Source: an uncultured bacterium
GTDB lineage: Bacteria; Patescibacteriota; Gracilibacteria; Absconditabacterales; Absconditicoccaceae
Length of the DNA stretch: 39,523 nt
Reading direction: 5' to 3'
NCBI GenBank assembly: GCA_903953935.1
Contig: CAJBLF010000052.1
Span: forward strand, 1 to 39,523
Part shown: piece by piece, positions 20,967 through 25,277 of the stretch
Numbering within the stretch: position 1 is the stretch's first letter
How the letters are laid out: every line of letters begins with the position of its first letter
Program-made: the position numbers and the translations under genes
The notes under the pieces: model-generated
Databases searched by the model: none
What the model was told of the DNA's origin: nothing
The model's input: the letters and a program-made list of their open reading frames with translations, nothing else

Positions 20967-23576
20967 ATGAAAATATCGGTTTTACATTGGATCCTGAAAA
21001 GCATGTTTTCACAGATAGAGACGCTACTTACAAACAACTCAAACTCATGCATAACCCACGCAAATACCTTAGCATTTACTAATAGACAAAAATCAATTCA
21101 TGGTGAAGATCTTTTTTGGGGAATTTCAACATTTCTCAAACATCAAGATCTCAATACTATTTTTTGGAAATTACTTGGTGTTTCAGAAGAAACATTAGAA
21201 AAATATTTTGAAAATAAGTACAATAGAAATACAATACTAAGACAATTACAAGAAGCAAAAGAGTTACCATTGAGTAAAAAAATTTCTCAGGCACTCACCA
21301 AACACATAAAGAAGACGACGAAAACAGTAGATCTCGATATACTATTTTTTGTATCATTTCATGATTTGTCAAATCAATTTACCAAGCACTTATATGACCA
21401 CCAAATAGACACAGAAACAATAGTTGAGAACTACAAAAAACTCAACAAAAACCCCCTAATAGTTAAGATGTGATTATTTGCTTTTTTACAAGTCTTAAGT
21501 AAAATCTTTATAACGTTCAATTTAGATGTTAATAAGATTAAACTCATGGAAATAGAGAAAATACAGAAAATAGACAACATCAATATGCTTTTGGATGCTG
21601 TAGAAAGCGAAATAGTAGAAAAAGAAAATACAGTTACTACAGGAGACAAAGCCAAAAAAGAAGAAAAAAAACTTACGATAGAATATTTCGGTACAGATTT
21701 GACCAAAGAAGTCAAAGACGGACTTATCGATCCAATTATCGGAAGACAAAACGAAATAAATCAAATCATCTACACGCTTTTGAGGAAAAACAAAAACAAT
21801 CCACTCCTTATAGGAGAAGCAGGAGTTGGTAAAACAGCTATTGTAGAAGGATTAGCACAAAAAATAGTCCAAGGCGATGTTCCAGAAAAACTCAAGAATA
21901 AGAGAATATTTTTGCTTGATATGGGAACATTAGTTGCAGGAACAAAATATAGAGGAGAATTTGAAGCAAGAATGAAATCCATACTAGAAGAAGCTATGGA
22001 TCCTACGAACAATATCATCCTCTTTATCGATGAAATCCACACCATTATCGGCGCTGGAGGACAAGAAAATGGTGATGCAGCACAAATGCTAAAACCACTC
22101 CTTTCTAGAGGCAAGATAAAGCTTATCGGATCAACAACATTCAATGAATATCAAAAATACATAGAAAAAGATGCTGCACTCAAAAGAAGATTCCAAGAAG
22201 TTATCATCAACGAACCAGATGTAGAAACTAGCAAACAAATTCTTCTCGGATTGAAAAAAACGTACGAAGATTTTCATGGTGTACAGATCAATGATGAAGC
22301 ACTTGATGTAGCTATCAACCTCAGCAAAAGATTTATGATGAATAAATTTTTGCCGGACAAAGCACTCGATATTCTCGATGAAGCTTGTGCAAGAAAATCA
22401 ACAATGAATCAAAAACTCGGTAACGATAAAGAATATAAGAAATATGAAGAAACACTAGTCAAAATACAGAAAAAAATAGAAGACGCTATAGAAAAACAAG
22501 ATTATTTTGGAGCAGCAGAACTCAAAGCAAAAGAGGAAGAAGCCAAAGTAGAAATGCAAAAGATCAGAACCAACAAAAACATTCCGATAAATCTTAGACA
22601 GATTATCAGCAAAGAAGATATCGGGAACGTTTTAGCAGACAAGACAGGTATTCCTACAAATATCGTCAACGAATCCGAAATAGAAAAACTTAGAAGATTG
22701 AGTGAAGAATTGAAAAAAAATATTGTAGGTCAAGACGAAGCTGTAGAAGCTGTAGTTAAAACGCTGACAAGAAGCAGATTATCAGTCATTAAATACACAA
22801 AACCAATTGGATCATTCCTTTGTTTAGGACCAAGTGGTGTAGGTAAAACATACTTAGCTAAGCTTATCGCAAAAGAATATTTTGGCAATCCAGACGCAAT
22901 GATCAGAATAGATATGTCTGAATTTATGGAAAAATATTCAGTATCCAAACTTATTGGTTCACCAGCAGGATATGTAGGATATGAAGAGGGAGGTTGACTT
23001 ACCGAAGCAGTCAGAAGAAAACCATATTCAGTAATATTATTTGATGAAATAGAAAAAGCATCTAGCGATGTATTAAATATTCTATTACAGATTCTAGATG
23101 AAGGACATCTCAAAGATGCCAAAGGCAGGATGATTGACTTCAAAAACACTATCATCATCATGACATCAAATATTTGATCAGAAGAATTCGTGAAGAAACA
23201 AAGTACAATTGGCTTCGCAACCGGAGAAAAAGGAGATATCAAAGATAAAGCATTTGAACAAGTCAAAGAAAGGGTAATCGAAGAAATGAAGAATTTTCTT
23301 ACTCCTGAATTGCTCAATAGAATTGATTACAAAATCGTATTTAAGCATCTCAGCAAAGAGACTTTGGCAATGATTATGAAAAACAAGATTGAAGTATTTT
23401 TGAATGCACGAAAACTGAATTCTGAAATTGCATTACCAAAATATTCTGACAAACAAATCAAGGATATTATCGAGAAGATCTATGAACCACAATATGGAGC
23501 AAGACCACTCGAAAGATATATTCAAGATGAAATCGAACCACTGTTGATCAAGAAAATCATGGAAAAAAAGAAATAA
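20967..23576 (+). CDS. clpC: ClpC-type AAA+ unfoldase of the ClpCP protease
   Basis: 869 residues. A divergent N-terminal Clp domain; D1 with Walker [11 protein letters not shown] near residue 282, [16 protein letters not shown] and [11 protein letters not shown]; a short middle region with a UVR-like motif [20 protein letters not shown]2 with [14 protein letters not shown] near residue 620, [11 protein letters not shown] and [15 protein letters not shown]. The short middle domain and the tripeptide IGF in [10 protein letters not shown], at the place of the ClpP-binding loop, point to ClpC rather than ClpB. Gly from TGA in [16 protein letters not shown] and TSNIGSEEF. An in-frame TAG at 20931 fixes the start region. 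The partner ClpP is not in the window. Confidence 0.94.
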
Positions 23577-23683: not shown

Positions 23684-24064
23684 ATGACAAACAAACAACG
23701 AAAATATTTAGCTAATATTGTAGGCATTTGTGGTGTGCTGACTATGCTGTGAGGATGCCAAAAGAACACAGAAACAATAGATTCTACAAACACAATACAA
23801 ACAACAAAGCCGACAAGTACGACAGATATTCAAGCATCCATCACAAAAGATACAGAAAGCATAGGGGAAACAAGTACCAAACAACAGATAAGTATCAACA
23901 ATAAATGTGTGTGATGTGGAAAATGTGCAATGATAGCACCAGAAACATTTACTTTACAAGGAAGAAGGGCAGAGATAATATCTCAAAAACAAGTGACAGA
24001 CAACAAAACACAACAAGCAATAAGAAAGTGTCCTGAAGGTGCAATTGAAATAATAGAAGTATAA
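23684..24064 (+). CDS. Exported ferredoxin-like lipoprotein with one 4Fe-4S motif
   Basis: 126 residues. The N-terminus (MTNKQRKYLANIVGICGVLT) leads into MLGGC, a lipobox with Cys for lipidation. A Thr/Ser/Gln-rich linker of about 50 residues follows, then a mini-ferredoxin: CVGCGKCAMIAPETF, and AIRKCPEGAIEI, i.e. C-x2-C-x2-C...C-P as in single-cluster 4Fe-4S ferredoxins. Gly in LGGC and CVGCG is TGA-coded. A cytosolic ferredoxin would have no signal sequence, so this one may carry electrons at the outer face of the membrane. Partner redox proteins are not adjacent. Confidence 0.85.
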
Positions 24065-24085
24065 AAAACTTTTTTTCTATAAAAA

Positions 24086-24340
24086 GCGAAACCCTCGCGT
24101 TCGTCTATAGAACGCAAGGGGTAACAAAATAGGTGATAAAAATACCAGACATACTCAATAATCCGAAACGGATACAGGAGCAAACTGGGGTACTAACGTC
24201 CGTGGCGACGTAAACTGATTGGCCCGAAAAGGGGCACTATCCCATAACGCAAGGTGGTAAGCCTTGGTAATCATCTTTGGTGATGTAATTTCCACAACTA
24301 TTACGCCATTGATGATGGAAATATTATATATATTTTTTTT
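24086..24340 (+). ncRNA. Candidate structured non-coding RNA, family unknown
   Basis: A stretch clearly richer in G and C than its surroundings, without a gene, between the ferredoxin stop and the promoter of the next gene. Stem-loops seen in order: ACCCT-c-GCGTTC with GAACGC-a-AGGGGT (24091-24122); ATCCG-AAA-CGGAT (24161-24173); ACGTC-CGTGGC-GACGT (24196-24211); GCCC-GAAAA-GGGGC (24222-24235); CAAGG with CCTTG (24250-24266); ATCATC-TTT-GGTGAT (24270-24284). GGGGTA and CTATCCC may enclose stems 3 and 4. A T-run ends it at 24333-24340. Strand is assumed plus because of the T-run. I could not match it to tmRNA, SRP RNA, 6S or a known riboswitch; GTCCGTGGC plus GTAAAC recalls bacterial RNase P RNA, but the invariant GAGGAAAGTCC and ACAGAA parts are missing. 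Confidence 0.6.
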
Positions 24341-24405
24341 AATAAATCAAGTGATTTTTACACTTTTTTATATAAATAATTATACGAAGCATGATCTAAG
24401 TATAT

Positions 24406-24433
24406 TTGACTTTACAGAAGAAATATATATAAA
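24406..24433 (+). promoter_or_regulatory. Promoter of the gene at 24465
   Basis: TTGACT (24406-24411), 16 bp, TATAAA (24428-24433). It lies after the structured stretch, so that stretch is not the leader of the next gene. Confidence 0.6.
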
Positions 24434-24464: not shown

Positions 24465-25277
24465 ATGATCAAAAAACTATCGTCAAAATTCGAGAAAACA
24501 TGAGCATCCAGATTCGTCACCTCAGTGGTAGTGGTAGGTACTGCCCTTCTCGTTCTTCTAAAACCAGGAGTAAGTACCGCAAATAATGAAGTAAAAGATG
24601 AGATATTTAAACTATTAAACAAATATCCAGACAAAGAATATATCATACAAGAAGATCAGACCAATACCCAGACCCACACTTTCAATCAAGCATCTAATAC
24701 TATGAACGGAGGCAATGATGCCCTCAGCTATGCAAGCACAAACGTCAGCAAATATTACCCAGACATGAAAGACCATCTCATTACCATGATCAACAGTTTC
24801 CGAGATCAAGAACATAAAGACGCAACCATGAATTTACTCAATAAGATGGTAAGCAACATAAGCAATCCAGAGCAAAAAACTGGAGCCATCATTTACGCGC
24901 TAGAGATGAGTGTTTTCAACAAATGATTGTTCGTAAATAAATATGACAGTAAAATAACAGATGAAACATTCAAATATGTGGGAAGTTTTGATACCGAATA
25001 CAAAGCACGATTTAGATGATATTATGCAAGATTGGAGGCAAGCATAGAAACAAAACAGAATACTTTGAAGCAAAAACAAGATAATTTAGGACAGAAAAAA
25101 ATGGAACTCAAACAAGGATGCCAAGAAATTGAAGCAATAATGGACAAATTCACTCCTATACAAGTCAAGACATCAGAAGCTATCAAAAAACTCGTAATAC
25201 AGACCCAAGACTTATTTATAAGCAGTGGTTATATATTTTCTTCACACACCAAGACCTTATTTGAGGCATTACACTAA
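24465..25277 (+). CDS. Membrane-anchored coiled-coil protein, unknown function
   Basis: 270 residues. An N-terminal signal-anchor (RFVTSVVVVGTALLVLLKPG) is followed by an extracytoplasmic helical part, with coiled-coil character in IETKQNTLKQKQDNLGQKKM and the following 40 residues. A single Cys is in KQGCQEIEA. Gly from TGA in EKTGAS, FNKGLF and FRGYYA. No family recognised. The large gene at 25350 starts 72 bp later from its own strong promoter. Confidence 0.8.

Follow-up and report, generated by a model that had tools for sequence, protein, structure and literature searches.

The window (the whole stretch of 39,523 nucleotides analysed here) corresponds to contig 52 in a genome of 1.3 Mb that is 96% complete (labelled G000 below), and was read with code 25. 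In the region considered, clpC, a gene of protein quality control, is followed by a ferredoxin-like gene, a gene-free block and a protein gene of unassigned function (Table 1). The product of the ferredoxin-like gene carries its domain on a lipoprotein-like N-terminus, and the gene appears to have been gained or lost at the clpC locus among congeners (present in G000 and G001; absent from G008). The block at 24086-24325 has a GC content of 0.44 against 0.328 window-wide, a value reached by 0.05% of the 240-nt windows, and none of 328 sampled 240-nt windows, whichever the strand, reached its folding energy. For each strand, six or more local stem-loops were predicted, and reading-frame and Pfam checks gave no plausible gene inside. 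The block was thus as the sequence-only reading of this DNA had described it (gene-free, GC-rich and multi-hairpin). The promoter at 24406, which that reading had assigned to the next gene, corresponds to a plus-strand promoter-like site in the consensus scan (TTGACT-18-TAAAAT) before the gene at 24465-25277. On the other hand, the T-run at 24333-24340, which had been taken as the 3' end of the block, is the A-rich spacer of a promoter on the minus strand, and the terminator-like end lies at the opposite edge (24120-24081, minus strand).

Table 1. Genes at the clpC locus and parts of the predicted minus-strand RNA (positions in the window)
Feature	Position	Strand	Basis or remark
ClpC-type ATPase gene (clpC)	20967-23576		upstream of the ferredoxin-like gene; named from its own sequence only
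Ferredoxin-like lipoprotein gene	23684-24064	+	Pfam Fer4_13, E 2.4e-10; convergent with the RNA
Predicted ncRNA, about 235 nt	24081-24316	-	promoter and terminator positions, syntenic G008 homologue, most stable fold of the window
Putative intrinsic terminator: 11-bp stem CCCUUGCGUUC/GAACGCGAGGG, then UUUCGCUUUUU	24081-24120	-	terminator scan; hairpin 24120-24092 and U-run
Hairpin UGCUC..GAGUA, inner UCCG-UUU-CGGA	24152-24182	-	pairing probability near 1 in G000
Possible three-way junction: closing helix 24244-24238/24192-24186, hairpins 24235-24222 and 24211-24196	24186-24244	-	fold; homology only suggestive
Small hairpin CAAGG..CCUUG	24250-24266	-	fold; falls in a gap of the G008 alignment, so absent there
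5' hairpin, outer stem AUCAUC/GAUGAU	24270-24316	-	sequence and pairing kept in G008; transcription predicted to start at its first base
Apical loop UUGUGGAA, candidate seed or protein site	24290-24297	-	identical in G000 and G008
Promoter TTGATT-16-TATAAT	24323-24350	-	consensus scan, 10/12; inside the segment conserved in G008
Upstream conserved flank	24351-24380	-	within the G000/G008 local alignment
Protein gene, function unassigned	24465-25277	+	divergent from the RNA; no Pfam match over the cut-off

The minus-strand signals delimit a putative transcript whose predicted start, about 7 nt downstream of the promoter, coincides with the base of the 5' hairpin. In the ensemble computed for G000, long-range pairing was preferred over this hairpin (outer stem, about 0.28; inner stem, 0.006), and no counterpart of the competing pairing was seen in the G008 fold. 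Within the possible three-way junction, the two hairpins have pairing probabilities near 1 in G000, and the closing helix is weak (0.006).

The block was compared with known RNA families by covariance models. At the gathering threshold, Rfam 15 gave no match anywhere in the window; at the block this holds for 6S RNA, SRP RNA, riboswitches and all other families, and the models of RNase P RNA (RF00010) and tmRNA (RF00023) did not match there. Cmscan with relaxed cut-offs, a check proposed with the sequence-only reading, left three chance-level matches around the block (E 1.3 to 5.1) and hence no recognised family. Although the block shares with RNase P RNA and tmRNA the character of a GC-rich structured RNA within an AT-rich genome, the genes of both were found elsewhere in the same genome (G000:C21:24385-24774 and G000:C22:12690-13052, respectively). 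A divergent copy of either was excluded because both genes sit on other contigs, and the short resemblance to RNase P RNA that had been pointed out is due to chance. 6S RNA is likewise similar in length and encoded by a free-standing gene, but the block RNA does not form a single long, interrupted hairpin with a bubble at its centre, and no 6S match appeared even at the relaxed threshold.

Homologues were searched for with a covariance model built from the single minus-strand sequence, without use of genomic position. Among eight congeners there was one convincing match, G008:C43:2946-3144 (contig CALMEO010000043.1; E 3.9e-5); the only other match had an E value of 0.49. The G008 homologue occupies the syntenic position, flanked by clpC and the 24465-25277 orthologue and with no ferredoxin gene, and gave only sub-threshold matches to Rfam. 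Local alignment of the two intergenic regions scored 103, against 36 for the best of 1000 dinucleotide shuffles. The conserved stretch (24380-24269, about 110 bp) covers the upstream flank, the promoter and the 5' hairpin, in which two inner pairs still pair in G008 despite changed bases; past this hairpin the RNA body has diverged, and a different terminator-like hairpin stands at the same place in G008. Lack of conservation in relatives, which would have counted against a structured RNA, was therefore not observed, the promoter and the 5' part being conserved in one congener. Blastn of the block against the eight congeners returned only short AT-rich matches. A second model, R2 (promoter and 5' hairpin), found the element in G000 and G008 only, that is, in two of nine genomes of the genus and two of 49 of the family; when 380 genomes sampled from the phylum were searched, it found only its own source, under strict filters, with few candidates scored per genome and with G008 apparently outside the sample. 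An exact-pattern search gave eight matches in genome contigs, of which R2 confirmed the element in the G008 contig alone, and none in viral contigs. The block is single-copy in its own genome. G001 retains the order of clpC, the ferredoxin gene and the next gene (the 24465-25277 orthologue), has a short gap of about 100 bp and lacks the block; the syntenic loci of G004 and G006 are without the block, and those of the other congeners hold no relative of the RNA body. As a separate observation, a GTCATTCCGGCAGCCTGCC-like stretch in the gap between clpC and the ferredoxin gene of G001 (C223; L095) looks like a dispersed repeat.

The strand was judged from the signals and from wobble pairs. The sequence-only reading had placed the RNA on the plus strand, and a plus-strand ncRNA, or an RNA derived from the 3'-UTR of the ferredoxin gene, would end at the T-run 24333-24340. 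The dinucleotide-shuffle z of the full block is indeed better on that strand (-3.94 on plus vs -2.85 on minus; about -3.3 on both strands for the trimmed block), and it is only there that a G-U pair is preserved in the helix closing the possible junction. However, two helices are unbroken only on the minus strand, namely the strong terminator stem (T-G pair; C.A on plus) and the hairpin 24182-24152 (G-U pair; A.C mismatch on plus), the T-run forms the spacer within a conserved promoter of the opposite strand, and no ferredoxin gene precedes the G008 homologue. The conserved promoter, the 5' hairpin and the terminator all read on minus, and the end formerly proposed as 3' is really near the 5' end; we thus regard a plus-strand RNA as unlikely.

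The minus strand of G000 also contains a frame of 66-78 codons that is open through the block under code 25, with an AUG at the same aligned site in G008, as would suit a 5' leader followed by a small protein. In G008, however, a net insertion of 2 nt relative to G000 puts the frame out of register, and early stops reduce it to 22-27 codons; each of the three changes seen among the first nine aligned codons is a replacement. The frame has neither a Pfam match nor a Shine-Dalgarno-like sequence. The indels and replacements against G008 leave no conserved protein frame through the block, which had been named as an observation that would speak against an RNA, and a small protein is very unlikely.

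The concentration of conservation in about 110 bp upstream of the 24465-25277 gene, together with the divergence of the body, could instead reflect regulatory DNA, i.e., a divergent control region that serves that gene and holds operator-like palindromes, and the remainder would be filler without constraint. The conserved promoter points away from this gene, however, and conservation runs past the start into the hairpin with the invariant loop; a promoter-like site of the gene's own lies at 24406, and filler is not expected to be the GC-richest and most stably folding part of the window. We consider this explanation improbable as well.

For the RNA body, covarying pairs in homologues had been proposed as a check, and two sequences were available. 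In a structure-fitted alignment of G000 and G008, 12 pairs change on both sides; as proof of covariation these were rejected, the alignment being fitted to the structure and the argument circular. In a fair control, the three-hairpin template could also be fitted to 46 of 400 shuffled G008 bodies (11.5%). A sequence-only model gave another alignment of the body (19.0 bits vs 24.2 with structure). For these reasons we make no claim of covariation in the body. When folded separately, G000 and G008 each form two adjacent hairpins in the same order, and homology of the body hairpins may be regarded as only suggestive.

On these grounds the block is probably a free-standing gene for a small ncRNA of about 235 nt, read on the minus strand from about 24316 to 24081. 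The RNA would be transcribed from the promoter at 24350-24323 to the terminator at 24120-24081. As to the earlier choice between a new RNA class and a divergent housekeeping RNA, the structured ncRNA stands (absence of an Rfam match, the syntenic G008 homologue, the conserved promoter and 5' hairpin, and absence of a conserved frame), and the housekeeping option is rejected in view of the RNase P RNA and tmRNA genes elsewhere and of the narrow distribution. The best reading of the sequence is accordingly worded as a putative orphan, lineage-specific RNA and not a housekeeping RNA in disguise. The attributes of a trans-encoded sRNA are seen at the sequence level (own promoter, own terminator, no protein frame), with conservation in relatives found in G008 and for the 5' part. 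With about half of the confidence given to the gene itself, hence tentatively, the RNA might act in trans as a regulator; a target RNA or protein would then be contacted through the invariant UUGUGGAA loop, and the rapidly changing body, with the terminator hairpin, may serve as a stabilising scaffold. The predicted gene resembles intergenic sRNAs with a sigma-70-type promoter and an intrinsic terminator (e.g., trans-encoded sRNAs of Enterobacteria) in being a free-standing intergenic gene for a structured RNA of 50-300 nt with a U-run terminator hairpin, in its narrow phylogenetic range and in the short invariant loop as a possible seed. It differs from them in being without a known target or chaperone and without Rfam similarity, and in its code-25 host lineage. 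A literature search, with subscription journals mostly outside its reach, found no description of a small RNA from code-25 bacteria. In other respects the gene would be of an ordinary kind, as bacteria often have orphan small RNAs. With a defined strand, start, terminator and invariant loop, it is a concrete object for searches of metatranscriptomes, and it suggests that reduced genomes of this type still gain lineage-specific RNA genes.

Other structured blocks were found behind clpC. G005 (C19, 2190-2640; L092) has at the syntenic place a block of about 430 nt that is likewise rich in hairpins but different from that of G000 (z about -5 for either strand). Rfam gave nothing notable for it, and elsewhere in the genus only its promoter and short end pieces recur. 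Its minus-strand promoter resembles that of G000 and G008 (28 bits with R2; local score 43 vs a maximum of 39 in 100 shuffles), and its body is not alignable to the G000/G008 RNA. A match of a G005 hairpin in G000:C33 seems to be a coincidence within a protein gene and was discarded. A structured intergenic stretch of unrelated sequence is also present downstream of clpC in G002 (C48; L097; z -3.3 on the clpC strand). Such a different block at one locus, and the presence or absence of the G000 block among congeners there, would also be expected of a mobile element, present as a remnant or as a non-autonomous copy and rich in hairpins by accident. The single copy in G000, the conserved promoter and hairpin, and the phage and plasmid collections, in which blastn of the block gave only short, AT-rich chance matches, make a mobile element highly improbable, and a small RNA gene remains the preferred reading. 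It is conceivable, though doubtful, that the place behind clpC is a seat for antisense-oriented structured RNAs, at which promoter and position are kept and the body is replaced or diverges fast (G000, G008 and G005); code-25 bacteria would then have a new class of RNAs that evolve fast and might be connected with stress or Clp regulation.

The promoter pattern CTTGnTTT..AAAyATrTrTArTA gave 11 matches in the nine genomes of the genus, against one for the reversed control. Six precede orthologues of one protein gene, one precedes a short frame of G002, one lies upstream of the G007 tmRNA gene, and the structured blocks of G000, G008 and G005 have one each. The G005 block is at most a possible homologue of the RNA, because the same promoter precedes protein genes. 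A dispersed repeat suspected in the G005 block proved to be this shared promoter and a terminator-like piece at the query edge, found before protein genes as well. In G007 (C51; L119), the tmRNA gene has the same promoter type upstream. An unusually conserved promoter, approximately CTTGCTTTTTATAATAAAATATrTATArTA, stands before the orthologues of a protein with the motif FFxIKPFKDNDR in seven genomes (L110-L115, L101); five of these loci (L110, L111, L112, L113 and L115) also share an almost identical leader, AGTTTCAACTGTATTTCC(T/C)TTGRAACTTTA, in which a hairpin may form.
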